DNA from: Megalodesulfovibrio gigas DSM 1382 = ATCC 19364
GTDB taxonomy: Bacteria; Desulfobacterota; Desulfovibrionia; Desulfovibrionales; Desulfovibrionaceae
Reading direction: 5' to 3'
Assembly (NCBI RefSeq): GCF_000468495.1
Contig: NC_022444.1
Coordinates: forward strand, 263,809-310,169
DNA length: 46,361 nucleotides
A model generated the notes under the pieces. It saw only the letters and a list, made by a program, of their open reading frames with translations. It was not told the DNA's origin and made no database searches. Positions 1 to 46,361 of this stretch are shown here, piece by piece. Both the position numbers and the translations under genes were made by a program. Numbering within the stretch: position 1 is the stretch's first letter; every line of letters starts with the position of its first letter.

Positions 1-85
1 AGTCTTTGGAAAGGGGGTTCGGGGGAAGAACCTTTCTGTAGAAAGGTTTTCCCCCGAGAACGCTTTTCAAAAGTGCCCTGCTCTA
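1..85 (-). repeat. Truncated copy A of TA-bounded stop-codon repeat element
   Basis: Read on the minus strand this begins at the TAG stop codon of the molybdopterin oxidoreductase gene. Ten bases later comes TTTTGAAAAG, then a hairpin (GGGGGAAAACCTTTCT ... AGAAAGGTTCTTCCCCC) and the motif GAACCCCCTTTCC. The same order and spacing occur at 31676, 40075 and 46316. The copy runs off the window start, so its right end is not visible. It probably also terminates transcription of the oxidoreductase gene. Confidence 0.85.
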
Positions 86-2179
86 CATCTTGCTGACCTT
101 CACAAAGTGCTCCTGCAGGGAGAGGCCGCCGCCGGCGGCGTCTTCCTTCTTCAGGCCACCGATCATGAATTCCTGGTCGGCCACGCCCTTGTTGAAGGCG
201 CGGGACTCGGGGGGCAGCTTGTGGCCGAAGCCGTGGATCATGAACGCGGCTTCGGGATGGATGAAGTCCGTCACGTAGGCCTTGATGGTGCCTTCCACCT
301 TCTTGCCGTTGCCGCCCTGGATGCGCACGGTGTCGCCGTCGTTCACGCCCAGCGCCTTGGCGCGGGCAGTGTTCAGCCAGAGCGTGTTTTCGGACATCTT
401 CTGGCTCAGGAGGGAGTTGTTCACGGTATGGCCCTGGGTGTGCAGGGCGCAGCGGCCAAAGGCGATGCGGAAGGCATCCTCGCCTTCGGGTCTGGCCGGG
501 GATTCGTACGGCTTGAGGGAGGGCAGGCCCATGCCTTCCCACTTTTCATTGATGATTTCCAGCTTGCCTGAGGGCGTCTTGAACTTGAACTCGGCCATGT
601 CCTTGTAGACGGGCTTGTCGCACAGGGCCACCTGCCCGCTTTTTTCAAAGTCGGCGCGGGTCACGCCCGTGTCCTGCAACTGGTACTCGTGCAGGGCTTC
701 CAGGGAGTCGAAGGCCAGCTTTTCCACGCCCAGGGCCTTGGCCAGGCCGCAGATAATCTCCCAGTCCGCCTTGGTATCGTAGCGGGGCTCAATGGCCCGA
801 GCGCGGTAGAAGATGGTCGGCTTGAGGCCCGAACCGCCGGCGATGATGGAATCGCGCTCCAGATACGGGGACATGGGCAGGATGACGTCGGCATACCAGG
901 CAGAGTCGGACCAGGTGAACGTGGTGGCGACGATCAGATCCAGCGTGTCCCAGGCCTGGCGGATGGCGTCGGGGTCCGGCATGGCCATCAGCGGGTCATG
1001 ACGGTGGATGATGTACGCCTTGACCGGGTACGGCTGGCCCGAGACCATGGCCTCGTATGCCTTGTGCACCAGCCCGGGGCCGGCATCGATGTGCTTGAGC
1101 ACGGAGCCGGCGCCGTCGGCGCGGGGGATGGCCGGCTTCTCGAACAGGTCCACAAACTTCTTGAGCCCCTTGCGGCCCACGTCCTTGGGCGTGTTGGTGA
1201 CGGCCAGGCCACCCTTGGCGCCGATGGAGCCCAGCAGCGCATTGATGAGATACGCCGTGCGGGAAACGTAGAAGGAATCCGAATAGCGGGCCACCATCCA
1301 GCCGGGATGCCAGATGACCGCCGGGGCGGCCTGCACCAGCTGCTTGACGAACTTGCGCAGCGCACTGGCGGCAACGCCGGTTTCGCCCTCGGCCCATTCC
1401 GGCGTGTACGGCTCCACAAACTTCTTCAACGCATCGAAATTATTGACGTGGCGATCCACATACGCCGCGTTGTACTGCTTGGTGGCAATCAGCTCGTTGA
1501 GCACCGCCAAGTTGAAGGCATAGTCCGTGCCGGGGCGGATCATAAAGAAATTCTGCGCCTTGGATGCGGAGACGGTGGCCCGGACGTCAATGACGCTGAG
1601 CACGCCGCCATTGTCCAGGCTGTCCAGCACGCCGTTGACTTCCTTGACGTTGATGGCCTCAAAGATGTTGCGTGTCTGCAGCACAATGTGCTTGGCGTTC
1701 TTGTAATCGTAGATGAAGTCCTTGCGGCCGGAACCAGACACGGAAAGCGCGGCGTGCTGCACGTTCCTGGCGCATGAGGCATCATGATTGCAGTAGTTTG
1801 GCGATCCGATGCCACGCATGAAGGCCTGGTGCAGATCGACAAAAGGGCCGCCGCGATCAGACCACAAGACGCTCTGCGGACCATGCTCCGTCATGATGGC
1901 CTTGAGCTTTTCCGCCACATGGGCGAAGGCCTCGTCCCATGCGACACGACGCCACTTGCCTTCGCCGCGCGCGCCTTCGCGGATCATCGGATACTGCGGA
2001 CGCTCGCTGTCCTGCGTCAACGCGTACCCGGCAGCGCCACGTGGGCACAGCGCACCGCGCATGCCGGCATCCTTGGGGTTGCCCTGAATGAAGCGCACCG
2101 CGCCGTCTTCCACTTCCACCATGATGGGACACCGCACGGTGCACATGCCGCAAAGGCTGTAAACGTCTTTTCTGGCCAT
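83..2179 (-). CDS. Molybdopterin oxidoreductase, PhsA/PsrA-like, no Tat signal
   Basis: Catalytic subunit of the DMSO-reductase superfamily, 698 residues. The N-terminal [4Fe-4S] motif is CGMCTVRC (Cys10, Cys13, Cys17) followed by LCPRG; NHDASCARN supplies a candidate Cys ligand to Mo, as in thiosulfate/polysulfide reductases. The C-terminal part has the molybdopterin-dinucleotide-binding fold (NTARAKALGVNDGDTVRI). I chose the ATG at 2179 because GAGGGTGG lies just upstream; ATGs at 2194 and 2215 are alternatives. Neither start gives a twin-arginine leader, so the protein looks cytoplasmic, unlike typical PsrA/PhsA. It diverges from nuoA, and the ferredoxin at 14337 closes the nuo operon. The substrate cannot be read from sequence: thiosulfate/polysulfide reductase is the closest family, but an electron-input role for the complex I is possible. 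Its stop codon is the first three bases of repeat copy A. Confidence 0.85.
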   Translation of the reverse strand: MARKDVYSLCGMCTVRCPIMVEVEDGAVRFIQGNPKDAGMRGALCPRGAAGYALTQDSERPQYPMIREGARGEGKWRRVAWDEAFAHVAEKLKAIMTEHGPQSVLWSDRGGPFVDLHQAFMRGIGSPNYCNHDASCARNVQHAALSVSGSGRKDFIYDYKNAKHIVLQTRNIFEAINVKEVNGVLDSLDNGGVLSVIDVRATVSASKAQNFFMIRPGTDYAFNLAVLNELIATKQYNAAYVDRHVNNFDALKKFVEPYTPEWAEGETGVAASALRKFVKQLVQAAPAVIWHPGWMVARYSDSFYVSRTAYLINALLGSIGAKGGLAVTNTPKDVGRKGLKKFVDLFEKPAIPRADGAGSVLKHIDAGPGLVHKAYEAMVSGQPYPVKAYIIHRHDPLMAMPDPDAIRQAWDTLDLIVATTFTWSDSAWYADVILPMSPYLERDSIIAGGSGLKPTIFYRARAIEPRYDTKADWEIICGLAKALGVEKLAFDSLEALHEYQLQDTGVTRADFEKSGQVALCDKPVYKDMAEFKFKTPSGKLEIINEKWEGMGLPSLKPYESPARPEGEDAFRIAFGRCALHTQGHTVNNSLLSQKMSENTLWLNTARAKALGVNDGDTVRIQGGNGKKVEGTIKAYVTDFIHPEAAFMIHGFGHKLPPESRAFNKGVADQEFMIGGLKKEDAAGGGLSLQEHFVKVSKM

Positions 2180-2488
2180 GAGTTCCACCCTCATAAAAGA
2201 TCTGAATGACGGCAAGTGCCGTCCGCTCGCGGGTCTTTACCGGATAGCTGGTGGTAACAGGTCCTGGCGGCCTGAGGCAAGCAAAGGGCCTCGATTGTGA
2301 AAAAAAGAACGCTACAAATCCGGAAATTCGTGACCAGACACGAAAACCGAGTGAAAAAAATGGGAAATTAAGAACAACTTCCAGATTTCTTGACATTTTG
2401 TCGCCAAAGGTGTTTTGCAATCATAGGGAATCGACAGGCGTCTGGGCGCATGACGAGACGAACGTGACCTGGAAAAAGGGGACGGCGC
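2180..2488. other. Divergent intergenic region between oxidoreductase and nuoA
   Basis: 309 bases without a gene. The sequence is noticeably more AT-rich than its surroundings between about 2290 and 2430, as expected for a divergent control region. I see a TTGACA box at 2390 (listed separately) and an isolated TTGTGA half-site at 2295, but no convincing palindromic operator. Confidence 0.6.
2390..2424 (+). promoter_or_regulatory. Possible promoter of the nuo operon
   Basis: A perfect TTGACA lies at 2390-2395 in the AT-rich part of the intergenic region, about 95 bases upstream of nuoA. The best -10 candidate, AATCAT at 2419 with TG at 2416, is 23 bases away, longer than the ideal 17, so the pairing is weak. 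Confidence 0.3.
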
Positions 2489-29947: not shown

Positions 29948-31678
29948 ATGGATACCCGCGATACTGCCTGCCCGCCCACAGACTCTGCTCCCGTCCAGCC
30001 CAAGGACTTCATCCGCCTCATCGTGGAGGAAGACAACCGCACCGGTCGCTGGGACGGACGCGTGCATACGCGCTTTCCCCCGGAGCCCAACGGCTACCTG
30101 CATCTGGGCCATGCCAAGTCCATCTGCCTGAACTTCGGCCTGGCCAGGGAATACGGCGGCAAGTGCAATCTGCGCTTTGACGACACCAACCCCCTGAAGG
30201 AAAGTGACGAATACGTCCAATCCATCCAGCGCGATGTCACATGGATGGGGTTCAACTGGGACGGCATGTACTACGCCTCGGACTACTTCGAGCAGCTCTA
30301 CCAGTTTGCCGAACAGCTCATCCTCAAGGGCAAGGCCTATGTGGACAGCCAGACGGCCGAGGAAATCCGCACCGCCCGCGGCACCCTCACCGAGCCCGGC
30401 GTCAACAGCCCCTGGCGTGATCGCAGCGTGGAAGAGAACCTTGATCTCTTCCGCCGCATGCGCGCCGGCGAATTCCCCGACGGCGCCCACGTGCTCCGGG
30501 CCAAGATCGACATGGCGCATCCCAACATCGTCATGCGCGATCCCACCATGTACCGCATCCGCCACACGCCCCATCACCGCACGGGCAATGCCTGGTGCAT
30601 CTACCCGCTGTACGACTACACGCACTGCATTTCCGACTCCCTGGAAGGCATCACCCACTCCCTGTGCACCCTGGAGTTCGAGAACAACCGCGCCCTGTAC
30701 GACTGGGTGCTGGACGAGCTGGACGCCTACCATCCGCAACAGACGGAATTCGCCCGCCTGAACCTCACCTACACCGTGCTTTCCAAGCGCCGGCTCATCC
30801 AGCTGGTGGAAGAAGGCCATGTGGACGGCTGGGACGACCCGCGCCTGCCCACCCTCTCGGGCGTGCGCCGCCGCGGCGTGCCGGCTGCGGCCCTGCGCAG
30901 CTTCTGCGAAAAAATCGGCCTGGCCCGCTGCGACAACATGGTGGACATCGCCCTGCTGGACCACTGCATCCGCGAGGAGCTCAACGCCACCGCCCCCCGG
31001 GCCATGGCCGTGCTCAAGCCCCTCAAGGTCACTATCACCAACTATCCCGAGGAGCAGGTGGAATGGTTCGACTTCCCCTGGCACCCCGAAAAGCCGGAAA
31101 TGGGCACCCGCCCCCTGCCCTTCTCCCGCACCCTGTGGATTGAACAGGACGACTTCCGCGAGGACGCCCCCAGGAAATGGTTCCGGCTGGCCCCGGGCAA
31201 GGAAGTGCGCCTGCGCTACGCCTATTACATCACCTGCACAGAGGTGGTGAAGGACGACGCCGGCAACGTGGTGGAGCTCAAATGCACCTACGACCCGGAA
31301 ACCAAGGGCGGCTGGAGCAAGGACGGCCGCAAGGTCAAGGGCACCCTGCACTGGCTCTCCGCAGCCCACGCCAAAACCGCCGAGGCCCGGCTGTACGACC
31401 GGCTGTTCCTCGAAGAAAACCCCATGGACAAGAAGCGCCACGGCAAGGAATTCCTGGAGTGTCTGAACCCGGAATCCCTGCATATCCTGCCGTCCATCTT
31501 CATCGAACCCGCCCTGGCAGAAGCCGCGCCCGGCTTTGTCTGCCAGTTTGAGCGGCTGGCCTACTTCTGCGTGGATACCCGGCACTCCGCCCCCGGCGCA
31601 CCCGTGTTCAACCGCACGGCCACCCTCAAGGACTCCTGGGCCAAGACCGAACGGGCCGGGCTCGCCGGCGAAGGCTAG
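29948..31678 (+). CDS. glnS: Glutaminyl-tRNA synthetase
   Basis: Class I aminoacyl-tRNA synthetase, 576 residues. The HIGH region is [15 protein letters not shown] (about 44-58) and the KMSKS region is VLSKRRL (about 276-282). The bacterial GlnRS anticodon-binding barrels follow ([23 protein letters not shown]). The family distinction from GluRS is supported by NCxxxDDTNP-like [10 protein letters not shown] and by the two C-terminal barrels. Its last codon is followed by TAG, which forms the left end of repeat copy B. Confidence 0.95.
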
Positions 31679-31875
31679 GGCAAGGTACTTTTGAAAAGAA
31701 CTGTCGGGGAAACCCTTTCTGGAGAAAGGGTTTCCCCCGAACCCCCTTTCCAAAGACTTTTGGTATAATTACAAGATACTATCAGCGTTTTGGAAGGGGA
31801 CGTTGCGAGAGGGGAGAACCTTTTGCAAAAGGTTTCCCTCTCGCAACATCCTTTTCCATAAGTAAAATGTCTTAA
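31676..31875 (+). repeat. Full copy B of TA-bounded stop-codon repeat element
   Basis: About 200 bp, starting with the glnS TAG stop and ending at TTAA. After the stop and ten bases comes TTTTGAAAAG. Hairpin 1 has a perfect 15-bp stem (31706-31720 with 31723-31737). GAACCCCCTTTCC may pair with TTTTGGAAGGGG near 31790. Hairpin 2 (31802-31847) has stem GTTGCGAGAGGG / CCCTCTCGCAAC around the palindrome AACCTTTTGCAAAAGGTT. The outer 21 bases at each end, inside the TA pairs, are imperfect inverted repeats (13 of 21). No coding capacity. Probably also the glnS terminator. Confidence 0.9.
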
Positions 31876-31931: not shown

Positions 31932-33194
31932 ATGCGCTATCTGTCCCTGTGCATCATCGTCAAGGATGAGGACCGGGCTCTCCGGGAATGGGTGGCCCAT
32001 CACGCCCTGCTCGGGGTGGAGCATTTTTTCATCTTCGACAATGAAAGCCGCGTCCCCGTGGCCCGAGCCCTGCGGGGGTTCCCGCCGCAGTTGTTCACCG
32101 TCATCAACATTTCCGGCATCGCGCAGCAGCTCCTTGCCTATACCGTGTGCCTGAGCGAATTCGGTCACACCAGCCGCTGGATCGGCTTCATTGACGCAGA
32201 CGAATTTCTGTTCCCCGTCCACGGGAACGACCTGCGGCCCGTGCTGGCGGAGTTCGAGCCCTACGCCGGCCTGGCCGTGCCCTGGACCATGTTCGGCGCG
32301 TCCGGGCATACGCGGCCTCCCAAGGGCCTGCTGACGGAAAGTTACCTCCATCGCTACCCGGACCATGCCACGGGCTGGCATCAGATCATCAAGTGTCTGG
32401 TGGATCCGGCCAACGTCCTGGGGGTGGAGGATCCACACCGGTTTCTGCTCCGCGAAGGCCAGCATCTGGTCAACGAACAGCACATCCCCGTCACCCCCGG
32501 TTCCAACCGCACGATACGGTCCTGCAACCGGCTGCAGCTGAACCACTACTTTTTCAAATCCAAGGAAGAGTGGGAACAGAAGCTCGCCCGGGGCCGGGCC
32601 GACCGCGCCGACGAAGCCGGCCGATACCCGGCGTCCCTGTTCGAAGACCAGGCCAGGACCGCCACGCAGCTGGACAAACGCATCCTGCGCTTTGTCCCCG
32701 GCGTGCGGGCTGCCCTGGCCAATCCTGCCAGCCTGTCCAGCCTCCCTGGCCTCCCTGGCCTCCCTGGCCTCCCTGGCCCGGCTGGCCCGGCTGGCCCGGC
32801 ACAGGAGCTGCCCCCGCCGTTGTCCCTGGACGACGCCATCGCCCGCTGCATGCAGGCCGTGCAGGCCGGCCAGATTGAAGCCGCGCAAATCCTGCTCTGC
32901 CAGGCAGCGGCCACCCAGGGCCATGCCGCGGAACTGTGGCTGCTGCGGGCCATGCTCGCCCGCCTCACCAACCAGTGGGAAAGCGCCGCATTCCTCATCC
33001 GCCAGGCCCTGCTGCGTGCGGAAAGCCCGCAGATCTATCTGGAGCTGCTGCGCATCGCCCATGCCACCGGCCGGCGCGAGGAGGCCCGGGGCGCTCTGCT
33101 CTGCTTCAGTACCATCATCAAACACCAGGACGTCGAAGCAGAGTGGCGCGACCGCCAGACCGAGGCCGCCAAGCTGGTGGCGTCCATGGGCTGA
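31932..33194 (+). CDS. GT92/GT2-like glycosyltransferase with collagen-like linker
   Basis: 420 residues. The N-terminal domain (about 1-255) begins LSLCIIVKDEDRALREWVAHH and has FIFDNES and the metal-binding WIGFIDADEFLFP. This matches the Glyco_tranf_2_4/GT92-like family that modifies glycans in many bacteria. A Gly-x-y collagen-like linker (LPG four times, then PAG) spans about residues 271-289. The C-terminal domain (about 300-415) is helical and TPR-like (AVQAGQIEAAQILLCQAAA, LLRAMLARLTNQWESAAFL). The start is the ATG at 31932 after GGGAAGG; the frame opens 14 codons earlier. The substrate is unknown. It is separated from glnS by repeat copy B. Confidence 0.85.
   Translation: MRYLSLCIIVKDEDRALREWVAHHALLGVEHFFIFDNESRVPVARALRGFPPQLFTVINISGIAQQLLAYTVCLSEFGHTSRWIGFIDADEFLFPVHGNDLRPVLAEFEPYAGLAVPWTMFGASGHTRPPKGLLTESYLHRYPDHATGWHQIIKCLVDPANVLGVEDPHRFLLREGQHLVNEQHIPVTPGSNRTIRSCNRLQLNHYFFKSKEEWEQKLARGRADRADEAGRYPASLFEDQARTATQLDKRILRFVPGVRAALANPASLSSLPGLPGLPGLPGPAGPAGPAQELPPPLSLDDAIARCMQAVQAGQIEAAQILLCQAAATQGHAAELWLLRAMLARLTNQWESAAFLIRQALLRAESPQIYLELLRIAHATGRREEARGALLCFSTIIKHQDVEAEWRDRQTEAAKLVASMG
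32742..32795 (+). repeat. 9-bp tandem repeats encoding collagen-like linker
   Basis: Four identical CTCCCTGGC units followed by two CCGGCTGGC units, in frame, giving Leu-Pro-Gly and Pro-Ala-Gly triplets. Confidence 0.95.
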
Positions 33195-38256: not shown

Positions 38257-40077
38257 ATGTTCGAGAACATCTCCGTTCAAACGCGAGTGCTCTGCCTGCT
38301 CGGACTGATGCTGCTCAGCATCGCCGGCGCCATGGTGCTTGCTTCCAGGGCCATGGACGAGATTGCCGACATCGGCGTGGCGGAAACTCAGAACACCATG
38401 CTCCAGGGCGAGCGCAACAAAGTGAAGGTGGCCACGGACGCCATGGCCGCCGCCCTGGGCGACCTGCTCAAGGACGTGTCCGGAGATGACGCCCGCGTGC
38501 AATTCATCCGCCAGTCCGTGGACGCCTTCCGCTTCGAGGAAGACAAGTCCGGCTACTTCTTCGTGTACAAGGGCACGGTGAACGTGGCCCTGCCCCCCAA
38601 AAAGGAACTGCAGGGCAAGGATCTGAACGAAACCAAGGACGTCAACGGCGTCTACTTCGTCCGCGATCTGGCCAGGGCCGCTGCCCGCGGCGGCGGGTTC
38701 GTGGAGTACATCTTTCCCAAACCCGGTAAGGGCGACCAGCCCAAGCTGGCCTATGCCGCAATGATTCCTGGCACGGACATCTGGATCGGCACCGGCATTT
38801 ACATCGACAACGTAGAGGAAGCCAAGACCGCCATCCGCGCCCACATCACCACTGCCACGGGCAAAGCGCTGCAATCCATCACCCTGCAACTGGCCGCGTT
38901 CTTCGTCGTCCTGGTGCTGCCCCTGGCTGTACTGCTCATCCGCAGCGTGGTCCTGCCCATCAAGGAAGCCACCGCCGCCGCCCAGGCCGTGGCCGCCGGC
39001 AATCTGGCCATCACCATCACCCCCAAGGGCACCAGCGAAATGGGCCGCCTGCAGGCCGCCCTGCGCGACATGGTGGCCACCCTGAACAAGAATCTGGAAG
39101 ACATCACCCAGCAGACCCGCTTGGCTGAGGAAAAAGCCCTGGCCGCCGAGGGAGCCTCCTCAGAGGCCCGGGCTGCCACCGAACGGGCTGAACACGCCAA
39201 GGCGGAAGGCATGCTCCACGCCGCCACCCGGCTGGATCAACTCACCTCCCGTCTGGCCGCCGCCATGGAAGAGATTGCCGCCCAGTCCGACATCATCCGC
39301 CAAAGCACCAGCCAGCAGCAGGAACGCATCCATTCCACGGCCACGGGCATGGAAGAAATGCGCGCCACGGTGGTGGAGGTGGCCCGCAGCGCCGCCGAGG
39401 CCGCCCGCCAAAGCACCCAGGCCCAGGACGAAGCCAGACGCGGCGCAGATGTGGTGAGCAAGTCCATCGACGCCATGAGCTCAACACGCAAGAAAGCGGA
39501 ATTCCTCAAGGACTCCATGCGCAACCTGGACCAGCAAGCCAAGGATATCGGCTCCGTCCTGACCACCATCAACGACATTGCCGACCAGACCAACCTGCTG
39601 GCGCTGAATGCTGCCATCGAGGCGGCCAGGGCGGGCGATGCAGGCCGCGGCTTTGCTGTGGTGGCCGACGAAGTGCGCAAACTGGCGGAAAAGACCATGC
39701 AGGCCACCAGGGAGGTGGGCCAGAGCATCACCGCCATCCAGACCGCCGCCGCCAGCAACGTGGCCGGCATGGACGAAGCCGTCCAGGAGATGACCCGCGC
39801 GGCAGACCTGGCCAACGAGTCCGGCTCGTCCCTCTCGGCCATTGTCCAGGCCGCCCAGACTGCTGCCGGGCAGGTGCATTCCATCGCCACAGCGGCCGAA
39901 GAACAGTCCGCCACCACCGAGGAATTCAGCCGGGCCCTGGAGGAAATCAACCAACTGGCAGGAGAGACCTCCACGCACATTTCCGGCACGGCCGATGTGC
40001 TCCACGAACTGGCCGAACAATCCAGCACCCTGACCTCCCTCATCGAAACCATGAAACGGGAGTCGCAGGGCAGCTAG
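38257..40077 (+). CDS. Methyl-accepting chemotaxis protein with Cache domain
   Basis: 606-residue transmembrane chemoreceptor. Helix 1 is at about 9-31. A periplasmic single Cache-type domain follows (about 35-200), with [19 protein letters not shown] and [17 protein letters not shown]. Helix 2 is at about 207-229. HAMP is followed by a long signalling coiled coil whose hairpin tip, about residues 440-480, reads [18 protein letters not shown] and [15 protein letters not shown]. Ligands of such Cache domains are often carboxylates or amino acids; none can be named here. AAGGGGGGAAG precedes the ATG. The TAG stop is the left end of repeat copy C. Confidence 0.93.
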
Positions 40078-40278
40078 AGCACGTTGTTTTTGAAAAGAAC
40101 TCTCGGGGGAAAACCTTTCTGAAGAAAGGTTCTTCCCCCGAACCCCCTTTCCAACGACTTTTTATGGTGATTCAAGGTCACTCTCAAAGTGTTGGAAGGG
40201 GAGAGCGCGAGACGGGAGAACCTGTTGCAAAAAGGTTTCCATCTCGCAATGTCCTTTTTCAAAAGGAACATGCCTTAA
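40075..40278 (+). repeat. Full copy C of TA-bounded stop-codon repeat element
   Basis: About 204 bp, from the chemoreceptor TAG stop to TTAA, in the gap between two convergent genes. Hairpin 1 is at 40105-40139 (one mismatch), GAACCCCCTTTCC follows, and hairpin 2 is at about 40205-40248 (GCGAGA ... TCTCGC). The 21 bases inside the terminal TA pairs are inverted repeats at 15 of 21 positions (left GAGCACGTTGTTTTTGAAAA; right end complement AGGCATGTTCCTTTTGAAAA). It probably also terminates transcription from one or both sides. Confidence 0.9.
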
Positions 40279-40338
40279 GGCAGAAGAGGAAGCGCATTCC
40301 CGGGTGACGTGTGCTGACGAATCCGCATGGCTCCGGGG

Positions 40339-42075
40339 TCACATGCCCAGCACGGTGCGGGCCAGCATGAGCACTTCCGACGGGCGGAAAGGCTTGGTCA
40401 TGTACACGTCTGCCCCGGATTCCAGGCCGCGCTGGGAATCGAATTCCTGCCCCTTGGCTGTGAGCATGACGACATACACGCCGTCCAGGGCCAGCTTGTT
40501 CTTCACCCAGTCGCACACGTCAAAGCCGTTCATCCTGGGCATCATGACATCCAGAAAGACGAGGGACGGCCGTTCTTCCTTGATGAGGGCCAGGCCCTCT
40601 TCGCCGTTCTCGGCATACAGCAGGGCGACGCCCTCTTCTTCCAGGGTCTCCAGGGTTTCTTCCAGGAGCATGCGGATGTGCGGCTCGTCATCCACAATGA
40701 GAATCTTGGAGGCCGTCTTGGCCGTGGCCGCCATGGCGGGAGCCTCCGGCGGCACAGCCACGGTGCTGATGTCCAGGGGAGCCTCGCCATCCAGGAACAG
40801 CACCGGGCCACTGGCGCCCACATCCTCGCAGACGGCCAGGGCCTCCACGTCCCACACGCCTTCACCGTCCGACAAGGATGCTTGGGGCGAATAAGGCGCC
40901 GGGGCATGCCAGCTCTTGCCGGCAAGTTCCGCATACAGGGCCATGGCGGCGGCGTGCCGGTCATCGCGTTGCAGGATGGCAACCACATGCTCCAGGGCAG
41001 CCTCGTCCCGGCGCAACATCTGGCAGAGCCTGGCCAGGGCCAGACGCAAACCGACATCGTCCGGATCCAGGGCATGGGCCTTCTCATACAGGACGATGGC
41101 CGCATCGGCCCGGCCGCGCTGGAGCACCACATCGGCCACGGCTTGATAGGGGTTCACGACCAGGCAGCGGGTGCGCTTCATGTCCCGATAGAGTTTTTCC
41201 GCCTCGGCATTGTGGCCGCGCCAGACGTAGCCTTCTGCGGCCTTGTTCAGATAATGATGAAATTTCGCCAAATCACCCTTGCGTTGCCAGGCAATGGCCA
41301 GACCGCGGCAGGCATCCGGAAAACGGCCGCGCATGGCCAGGATTTTGGAGAAGGAGGCGATGGCCCGGTCGAGGTCCTTGGCCTTGAGCGCCTCGCGGCC
41401 TTCGGCGAACAGCCGGCGGGCCTTGTCGCTTGCTGTCTCCCCAAGGGCGTCGCCAAACGTCTCGCCAGACGTCTCACCAGACGTCGCGCCAGATATCGCG
41501 CCAGTCGCCTTGACGGGTACCCGGGCTGGCGGCGCGGCGGGTGCTTCCGCTGGCTGTTCCAGCGGTGGCGCGGGCTGCACAAGTACGGGTTGCACAGGTA
41601 CGGGCTGCACAGGTACGGGCTGCACAGGTACGGATTGTACTGGCGCAGGTTGTACAGGCGGCACATGCACCGGAGCGACGTACCCGGCCGGCATGGCCGC
41701 CTCGGCAGTCTGCATCGCCAGTTCCTGCAGCGTCTGGGAGGAAAAGAGACGCGGCAGCACCGCAGGCAGGCCCAATTCCCGCGCCTGTCGCACCTTCTGC
41801 CCGTCGTCGTCCGACAGATGCACGATGCAGGGGATGCGCATCCCCTCGGCCTGGCGGAGAAACTGCAGCGCTGCGCGATCGTCCGCCATCAGGCAGCTCC
41901 AGCCGATGAGCACCAGGTCCGTCGTTCCTTCGGCTTCGGTCAATACCTGCACGGGCGATTGCCCATTGGCAGATCGAACCGCCATGCCGCAGCACGTGGC
42001 CAGATTGCAGGCGATTTTCTGCAGAATGGAATCGTCCTGGACAACAAGCACGCGCAAACGCGGAAGGTGTTGCAT
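40339..42075 (-). CDS. Pseudo-receiver, TPR and receiver domain protein
   Basis: 578 residues. The N-terminal domain (about 1-125) looks like a response receiver (LRVLVVQDDS), but the phospho-acceptor position reads LVLIGWSCL, so the Asp is missing and the late Lys is Arg: a pseudo-receiver. A repetitive Pro/Val/Gln linker and a Gly/Glu/Thr-Ser linker follow. A TPR block spans about 205-385 (KAKDLDRAIASFSKILAMRG, ADAAIVLYEKAHALDPDDV). The C-terminal receiver is intact (ILIVDDEP, FLDVMMPRMNG, YMTKPF). No DNA-binding domain. The ATG at 42075 is preceded by AAAGGA; the frame opens 41 codons earlier. Likely a signalling adaptor. Confidence 0.87.
   Translation of the reverse strand: MQHLPRLRVLVVQDDSILQKIACNLATCCGMAVRSANGQSPVQVLTEAEGTTDLVLIGWSCLMADDRAALQFLRQAEGMRIPCIVHLSDDDGQKVRQARELGLPAVLPRLFSSQTLQELAMQTAEAAMPAGYVAPVHVPPVQPAPVQSVPVQPVPVQPVPVQPVLVQPAPPLEQPAEAPAAPPARVPVKATGAISGATSGETSGETFGDALGETASDKARRLFAEGREALKAKDLDRAIASFSKILAMRGRFPDACRGLAIAWQRKGDLAKFHHYLNKAAEGYVWRGHNAEAEKLYRDMKRTRCLVVNPYQAVADVVLQRGRADAAIVLYEKAHALDPDDVGLRLALARLCQMLRRDEAALEHVVAILQRDDRHAAAMALYAELAGKSWHAPAPYSPQASLSDGEGVWDVEALAVCEDVGASGPVLFLDGEAPLDISTVAVPPEAPAMAATAKTASKILIVDDEPHIRMLLEETLETLEEEGVALLYAENGEEGLALIKEERPSLVFLDVMMPRMNGFDVCDWVKNKLALDGVYVVMLTAKGQEFDSQRGLESGADVYMTKPFRPSEVLMLARTVLGM
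41452..41499 (-). repeat. Four 12-bp tandem repeats in the TPR/receiver gene
   Basis: Plus-strand units GCCAAACGTCTC, GCCAGACGTCTC, ACCAGACGTCGC and GCCAGATATCGC encode Ser/Thr-Gly-Glu-type tetrapeptides on the minus strand, in frame. Confidence 0.85.
41572..41631 (-). repeat. Four 15-bp tandem repeats in the TPR/receiver gene
   Basis: Plus-strand unit GGGCTGCACAGGTAC, four copies with one or two changes, encoding Val-Pro-Val-Gln-Pro repeats on the minus strand. Together with the neighbouring 12-bp repeats this forms the flexible linker between the pseudo-receiver and the TPR block. Confidence 0.92.
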
Positions 42076-42262
42076 GTCTATCCTTTCCCGGCCCAACGAC
42101 GCAGCATGGCCATGCCCGCCCTTGCCATCTGTACGGGCGGTCCATCCGGCCGGCGGCAACGGCTCCTGCCCGGCGGCAAGGTGCGTTCCTGTGCTCACGG
42201 CTGTTCCCTACCATGCAATTTCGTAGTTCTCATGACAGATGCGACGCAGTCGCAGCGCCCCC

Positions 42263-45466: not shown

Positions 45467-46318
45467 ATGCCATACCCCCGAGGGAAAACCATCTCCTTTA
45501 TTGACAACGCAAATATCTATCGCGGCGTCGGTAAGGCCGGCTGGCGTATCGATTGGAAAAAATTGCAGGAGTTCATCGAAAAAGGCGGCCCCGTCTGGCA
45601 GACGTACCTCTTCGGCACGGCCATGATGCAGACCGAGCGGGACATGCCCGCCGCTTCCAGCTCGGAAGCCTTCTACCACTTCGTACGCAGCCAGCTGCAC
45701 TGGCACGTGAAGCTTTACGAGCCCAGGACGTATACCTCCACCTGCCGCAATTGCCAACACACCCGCGCCATGATTGAAGAAAAAGGCGTGGACGTGGGCA
45801 TTGCCACCAAGATGCTCATCCTGGCCCTGAACAAAGGCTACGACACGGCCATCCTCATGAGCGGCGACGGCGACCTCTACGAATGCGTCCATTACATCCT
45901 GAACCTGGGCATTCGCGTGGAGATCATCAGTTGGAAGGATCAGCTGGCCCGCGAGCTGTTCGACGTGGCGTCCAATGTCATCTATTTCGATGATATCCGC
46001 GACGAAATCGAGCTGTTCCGCGAGCCTTCCAGGCTTGATGCCAGGCCCGATGCCAGACCAGACGTCAGGCCCGACGCCAGACCCGACATGCGCAACGATC
46101 GTCCTGCCGACTACCGCAGCGATCGTCCTGCCGACTACCGCAGCGATCGTCCTGCCGACTACCGCGACAGCAGCGGCCTGCTGATTCGGCCGCCGCGCTC
46201 CGGCTACCAGGACTATCGCCCCGAATTCAACCAGGACTACCAGCCCAAAAACCAGTTTGCGGACGATCCGGACGAACTGGATGATGTGGACGACGGGCCG
46301 GCTCCGGGAAATCGCTAG
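45467..46318 (+). CDS. LabA-like NYN (PIN-fold) domain protein
   Basis: 283 residues. The NYN nuclease-like domain (about 7-175) has the acidic residues of the family: Asp13 in FIDNANIYRG, Asp109 in KGVDVGIATKML, and Asp134/Asp136 in MSGDGDLYECV. Members (LabA/DUF88) are thought to be RNases, sometimes regulatory. A CxxC pair (Cys93, Cys96) sits in a loop. The tail from about 186 is disordered and repetitive: Asp-Ala-Arg-Pro four times, then Asp-Arg-Pro-Ala-Asp-Tyr-Arg-Ser three times, and an acidic end. A charged tail of this kind suggests RNA or protein contacts. GAAAGGA precedes the ATG. The TAG stop begins repeat copy D. Confidence 0.9.
   Translation: MPYPRGKTISFIDNANIYRGVGKAGWRIDWKKLQEFIEKGGPVWQTYLFGTAMMQTERDMPAASSSEAFYHFVRSQLHWHVKLYEPRTYTSTCRNCQHTRAMIEEKGVDVGIATKMLILALNKGYDTAILMSGDGDLYECVHYILNLGIRVEIISWKDQLARELFDVASNVIYFDDIRDEIELFREPSRLDARPDARPDVRPDARPDMRNDRPADYRSDRPADYRSDRPADYRDSSGLLIRPPRSGYQDYRPEFNQDYQPKNQFADDPDELDDVDDGPAPGNR
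46037..46084 (+). repeat. Four 12-bp tandem repeats in the NYN gene
   Basis: Units of the type GATGCCAGGCCC, four copies with small changes, encoding Asp-Ala(Val)-Arg-Pro from residue 191. Confidence 0.9.
46096..46167 (+). repeat. Three 24-bp tandem repeats in the NYN gene
   Basis: Unit CGATCGTCCTGCCGACTACC plus GCAG, three near-identical copies, encoding an eight-residue Asp-Arg-Pro-Ala-Asp-Tyr-Arg-Ser repeat (about 211-234). The near-identity of third-codon positions shows recent duplication. Confidence 0.95.
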
Positions 46319-46361
46319 AGCAATGTACTTTTGAAAAGAACTGTCGGGGGAAAACCTTTCT
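46316..46361 (+). repeat. Truncated copy D of TA-bounded stop-codon repeat element
   Basis: Begins with the TAG stop of the NYN gene, then ten bases, TTTTGAAAAG and the first arm of hairpin 1 (GGGGGAAAACCTTTCT). It is cut by the window end. Confidence 0.85.

Follow-up and report, generated by a model that had tools for sequence, protein, structure and literature searches.

A probable IS630-mobilised miniature element in the stop codons of Megalodesulfovibrio gigas

Main finding

The genome of Megalodesulfovibrio gigas contains an estimated total of about 300 copies of a repeat of ~200 bp which is, very probably, a non-autonomous MITE moved by a resident IS630, mostly into stop codons, and carrying an older module inside. 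Each end of the element begins with a stop codon, and the element lands in stop codons; in this way it could multiply at the ends of genes in a compact GC-rich genome and leave them unbroken. The interior module, which is shared across phyla, is apparently undescribed, since it has no match in Rfam and its sequence was not found in the literature searched.

Copies in the analysed window

The window, i.e. the whole stretch of 46,361 nucleotides of M. gigas DNA that was analysed, contains four copies of the element. Two of them, B and C, had been described in a first-pass annotation and are indeed present; the other two, A and D, are cut. Copy C is complete and extends over 203 bp from TA to TA (40075-40277, plus strand). 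A methyl-accepting chemotaxis protein gene (38257-40077, plus strand) terminates at its left TAG, and the convergent gene on its other side, which encodes TPR and response-regulator domains (40339-42198, minus strand), ends 61 bp past it. This convergent arrangement had been correctly noted; elsewhere, copies also occupy the ends of genes in tandem. Copy B is complete as well (31676-31874, plus strand, 199 bp) and a glutamyl/glutaminyl-tRNA synthetase gene (29948-31678) uses its left TAG as stop codon. Partial copy A (1-85, minus strand) is cut by an assembly gap preceding window base 1, and its TAG (83-85) terminates a molybdopterin oxidoreductase gene (83-2215, minus strand). Partial copy D (46316-46361, plus strand) is cut by a gap past base 46361, and its TAG (46316-46318) is the stop codon of an NYN-domain gene (45467-46318).

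The left terminal inverted repeat (TIR) of copy C (40075-40097, plus strand) reads TAGAGCACGTTGTTTTTGAAAAG and is identical at 21/26 positions to the left end of the resident IS630 described below; the right TIR (40255-40277, minus strand) reads TAAGGCATGTTCCTTTTGAAAAA on the minus strand. A recount inside the terminal TAs reproduced the earlier figures for the inverted repeats, with 15/21 matches in copy C and 13/21 in copy B. These are the two best scores, each obtained once, among the 268 TA...TA pairs of the window that lie 185-215 bp apart. The right edge of copy C, initially placed at 40278, is really 40277, the terminal TA being 40276-40277, and a shift of one base lowers the match to 9/21. 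The interior had been said to contain two long hairpins and a third pairing between CCCCCTTTCC and GGAAGGGG, and all three are recovered in the predicted fold of copy C. They correspond to hairpin 1 (40103-40141, plus strand, 17 bp), hairpin 2 (40207-40247, plus strand, GCGAGA...TCTCGC) and, for the third pairing, the core stem (40145-40201, plus strand, CCCCCTTTCCAA...TTGGAAGGGG), which closes a small variable hairpin.

Short tandem repeats of a different kind are found in or near genes of the window (41571-41645, 46083-46165 and 32731-32775), with a 15-bp unit CGGGCTGCACAGGTA, a 24-bp unit in the NYN-domain gene and a 9-bp unit GCCTCCCTG.

A resident IS630 with the same ends

The first-pass annotation had recommended a search of the genome for a full-length insertion sequence with the same ends, and such an element exists. 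Two IS630 transposases were detected with PF13358. One complete copy of the IS and a truncated one were found, and some N-masked stretches could hide more. The complete IS630 measures 1000 bp (C2:3468208-3469207) and is bounded by TAGAGCATATTAATTTTGAAAA and TAGAGCATTTTAATATTGAAAA, which are identical to each other at 20/22 positions and match the TIRs of the element, the common ends being TAGAGCAtnTTAATnTTGAAAA. Its DDE_3/IS630 transposase is encoded by orfA and orfB, which cover positions 2-122 and 121-298 of NCBIfam NF033545 and are connected through a stretch of eight A, an arrangement suggestive of a programmed frameshift. With up to two mismatches allowed, the IS-end pattern occurs at 150 sites of the genome, against 0 for the reversed control.

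Given the ends that it shares with an IS630 of the same genome, the repeat can be considered a TA-targeting MITE of this IS. Indeed, it has a length of 203 bp, contains no transposase gene and carries TIRs that match at 15/21 positions in copy C and better in the consensus. The resident IS630-family (Tc1/mariner-like) transposase would recognise ends of the form TAGRGCAnnTTAnnTTTGAAAA and insert the element at TA, acting in trans.

The same association is seen in other members of the family. Homologous transposases are present in 15/99 family genomes, with best identities of 51-64%, and the transposases of G008, G026 and G055 are flanked by TIRs of this type. These three genomes also have MITEs with such TIRs around unrelated interiors of ~117-158 bp. 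The presence of the same TIRs around homologous ISs and around unrelated interiors indicates that the TIR belongs to the IS, and that varied payloads ride on it. Among the few loci available, 2-3 of ~10 of these MITEs with other interiors are located at stop codons. The TAGAGCA-TIR families concerned are represented by loci L237 and L241 in G055, L214, L219 and L229 in G026, and L212 and L222 in G008; G055 alone has 260 TIR sites. Carriage of the M. gigas element by phages or plasmids was also considered and rejected, no match being found in phage or plasmid collections; one viral contig has the hairpin-1 pattern.

Insertion into stop codons

Gene ends were defined with our own codon-usage gene caller and checked against the orthologues of a congener, G015. 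The TA ends of the element coincide exactly with the first two stop-codon bases of the incoming gene at 66/95 left ends and 36/66 right ends. At least one end is a stop-codon end in 44/55 two-ended copies, and both ends are in 12/58. Stop TAs represent 408 of the 16,081 TAs situated outside the elements. Within a given class of intergenic gap, occupancy of stop TAs can be compared directly with that of other TAs, with 24/155 vs 16/732 in convergent gaps and 24/230 vs 16/1248 in tandem gaps (odds ratios 8-9, p<1e-9). The base C precedes TA in 42% of the insertion sites vs 18% of stop TAs generally, suggesting some preference of the enzyme.

Most copies have TA at both ends, and both ends of the element read TAG. 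Each end thus begins with TA-G, so that an insertion rebuilds a TAG stop codon for genes arriving from either side, and even convergent genes sharing one TA stay intact. When the element is removed together with one TA, a TAG or TAA codon is restored at 27/33 stop insertions (p=1.6e-4 vs one half). The element would have reached ~300 copies in M. gigas mostly via the TA of TAA and TAG stop codons. A few ends read TGAGRGC instead, the TGA being the stop codon of the gene (C2:1242547, C2:1732903 and C1:623), and the other end is then usually TA; one reading of these ends is that a T changed to G, producing a stop codon in the other frame.

In the 1.23-Mb sample, an element lies within 300 nt of 118 of the 831 gene ends scored (14%), with a higher proportion at convergent (20%) than at tandem (9%) gene ends (p=1.5e-5). 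No preference for one orientation was found (19 vs 13, p=0.38). Such an occupancy is compatible both with a bidirectional 3'-end element that is useful and with a selfish one that is tolerated there.

Empty sites in a related species

G015 is a different species of the genus, not a strain of M. gigas, and 602,568 of its bases were examined. The element was found within 500 bp of 0 of ~20 orthologous gene ends. Clean orthologues were defined as those at least 70% identical and corresponding to an element exactly at the stop codon; 12 of 14 end at the same residue, and the remaining two extend 5 and 7 residues further. These empty sites and conserved ends indicate precise, non-disruptive insertion. 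For instance, the chemotaxis protein gene that stops at copy C has a G015 orthologue (91%) with the same last residue, a TAA stop codon and no element, after which comes a classic terminator, AGGAGCCCTCCGGGGCTCCTTTTTT. At the site corresponding to C2:831097, two genes of G015 end almost touching one another (catTAATCAtc). The earlier suggestion that the inverted repeats denote a transposed element is therefore upheld by the cognate IS630 ends together with the empty sites of the congener. A few related elements exist elsewhere in G015, including one of 103 bp with both TIRs (L256). The filled and empty gene ends of these two congeneric species constitute a natural experiment on mobile-element terminators or on the protection of mRNA 3' ends.

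Predicted fold and transcription termination

On both strands, copy C is predicted to fold as a four-way cloverleaf made of the TIR stem, hairpin 1, the core stem and hairpin 2. The folding energies of the two strands are -89.1 and -91.5 kcal/mol (z -8.5 and -8.3), and 0/200 shuffled sequences fold as well. Across 29 complete copies, the proportion of paired cells is 93-96% in hairpin 1 and the core, as well as at the base of hairpin 2, and 78% in the TIR stem. In the same 29 copies, covariation is barely above that of shuffles (12 pairs with two-sided changes vs 8.1) and the proportion of paired cells is equivalent (85.2% vs 85.1%), so that neither constitutes evidence for selection on the RNA. 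The RNAalifold consensus of the same alignment is poor, probably because two copies have no hairpin 1.

A canonical bidirectional terminator was rejected on the basis of negative terminator scans. No G+C-rich hairpin directly followed by a U-run was found in positions 40000-40400, and such a hairpin is present on 5/122 element strands. A known RNA family was equally rejected, with no Rfam match near the gathering threshold. Classic terminators are found beyond the element at 3/82 gene ends vs 43/424 at element-free gene ends, which gives a weak hint of their replacement. Among the orthologous gene ends of G015, 2/18 have a classic terminator, a number too small for any conclusion on the replacement of native terminators. 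Of the transcription-stopping or RNA-protecting role attributed to the hairpins by the first-pass annotation, the location at 3' ends is compatible, whereas neither a canonical terminator nor clear covariation above shuffles supports it. Once transcribed, the module may form or protect mRNA 3' ends in both directions, and we consider such a role and a purely selfish MITE to be about evenly poised.

An interior module that exists without the inverted repeats

The part comprising hairpin 1 and CCCCCTTTCCAAAGACTTTT is present in 41/99 family genomes, mostly without TIRs. In 20 of the 28 TIR-less copies examined, a gene of the same strand ends within 200 nt upstream of the module, in most cases within ~25 nt. 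From one genus to another, the letters on both arms of the hairpin 1 stem vary, and 15-19 pairs are kept. Modules lacking recognisable TIRs are also present in M. gigas itself. Several of them directly follow stop codons, and one (C2:1008816-1008963) combines hairpin 1, the core and hairpin 2. The module extends beyond this family, the exact 36-nt hairpin-1 pattern being found at eight rumen Ruminococcus loci, including isolate YE71. Most of these loci extend to hairpin 1, a long core stem and hairpin 2, and adjoin gene ends.

The occurrence of TIR-less modules in Desulfovibrionaceae, M. gigas and Ruminococcus implies that the module predates the MITE and is more widely distributed. The simplest reading is that this three-helix payload (hairpin 1 - core stem - hairpin 2) was captured by IS630 ends in the Megalodesulfovibrio lineage. 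Among the eight Ruminococcus loci (L304, L305, L309, L311, L313, L314, L318 and L327), several combine all three helices with a variable extra stem. In Desulfovibrio sp. STF2_139 (L316, L320, L307 and L308), the module is arranged in tandem with a spacing of ~207-221 bp, in a BIME-like manner, and with a GGCCGCCGGAGGC-type end.

Alternative explanations

Three other explanations were weighed against the MITE described here. The location at 3' ends with its convergent enrichment, the very stable fold and the TIR-less modules placed after stop codons in relatives would all be expected of a vertically inherited bidirectional terminator or REP-like 3'-end element, in which nothing transposes and the TIRs correspond to A/T tails and an outer stem. 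This is nevertheless highly improbable, and already largely refuted by the match with the IS and the empty orthologous sites. Indeed, the outer 22 bp equal the IS630 ends of the same genome and resemble those of homologous ISs elsewhere, the orthologous gene ends of the congener are devoid of the element, the same ends enclose unrelated interiors in G008, G026 and G055, and no U-tract is present. A more serious contender, whose chances we place a little below even, is a selfish MITE devoid of RNA function, the stop-codon bias of which would reflect both a choice of target (YTAR or CTAG-like) and purging from coding and promoter DNA. The excess of C before TA, the absence of preferred orientation, the scarcity of covariation and the unrelated interiors of the other MITEs of this TIR clade all agree with it, but it leaves unexplained an interior that stands alone at gene ends here and in other genomes.

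This interior could alternatively be a REP/BIME-like mobile repeat with its own transposase, the IS630 ends of M. gigas having been acquired secondarily. The exact 36-nt pattern common to Ruminococcus and the tandem arrays of Desulfovibrio sp. STF2_139 point in this direction; in the relatives, however, most modules share one orientation immediately downstream of stop codons, an arrangement also compatible with a functional 3'-end element, and we hold this origin to be unlikely. Returning to the IS630-borne MITE with an older module, its most ambitious extension is a mobile gene-end cassette, in which a structured 3'-end RNA module common to Desulfobacterota and Bacillota, enclosed by IS630 ends and brought together with its stop codon to ~14% of the gene ends of a single genome, would form or protect the mRNA 3' ends of the genes flanking it and perhaps take the place of native terminators. 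This extension is put forward tentatively, as doubtful rather than probable.

Comparison with known repeats

Several families of bacterial repeats share part of this architecture. Correia/NEMIS and ERIC are palindromic, flanked by TA and able to influence transcription or the processing of RNA, and to our knowledge no cognate IS630 is known in the same genome. Compared by architecture only, they differ from the present element in that no stop-codon precision is reported for them in the literature searched. REP/BIME repeats are palindromic, extragenic and present in high copy number, often close to the 3' ends of genes, a location and structure shared by the M. gigas element; unlike them, the latter has TIRs that belong to an IS630.

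The RUP element of S. pneumoniae is an AT-rich, short palindromic repeat of 107 bp present in ~100 copies, with TIRs resembling those of the resident IS630-Spn1, which is thought to mobilise it in trans; a preference for sites within or close to IS elements has been proposed for it (PMC3049150). By analogy, RUP with IS630-Spn1 can be regarded as the nearest precedent. The likeness, assessed on architecture only, lies in a short palindromic repeat whose TIRs resemble a resident IS630 and are paired in the fold; the M. gigas element differs by its size (~203 bp), its precise location in stop codons, the restoration of TAG and an independently existing module. SPRITE, another repeat of S. pneumoniae, similarly has a terminator-like stem and is enriched at convergent 3' ends, with a long U-rich tract, very short TIRs and no known IS (PMC3049150), whereas the M. 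gigas element has no U-tract and a matching IS. The repeat is absent from the available passages of the M. gigas genome paper (PMC4287179), and neither a report of it in this species nor its sequence was found in the literature searched. Outside ISfinder and subscription papers, no description was found of a stop-rebuilding MITE with an independent gene-end module.

Copy number and assembly joins

A search of the genome yielded at least 40 near full-length copies. In a systematic profile search of the window and of 59 segments of 20 kb (1.226 Mb in all), 114 places were detected, which corresponds to ~343 per chromosome, partial and TIR-less copies included. The element is dispersed over chromosome and plasmid contigs, and its copies share 81-100% identity with copy C; much of the amplification may therefore be old.

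This abundance accounts for where the M. gigas assembly breaks. The window itself is bounded by single-N joins at C2:263808 and C2:310170, inside copies A and D, and 53 of the 72 N runs lie in or beside elements, which cover 1.4% of the 1.23-Mb sample. Assembly joins are therefore concentrated in the repeat, and copies with an internal N are unsafe. For this reason, a subfamily of short copies created by internal deletion was rejected, most of them having a single N at the junction and being suspected assembly joins. Short copies free of N do exist at C2:91624 and C2:1632547, and at L256:1014 in G015. Long N runs follow CTAGCCCGCATATTGCA at L095:18481, L124:13000 and L126:12236 and are perhaps masked copies of another IS; a CTAGCCCGCATATTGCA end is also found beside the truncated IS630 in L091.
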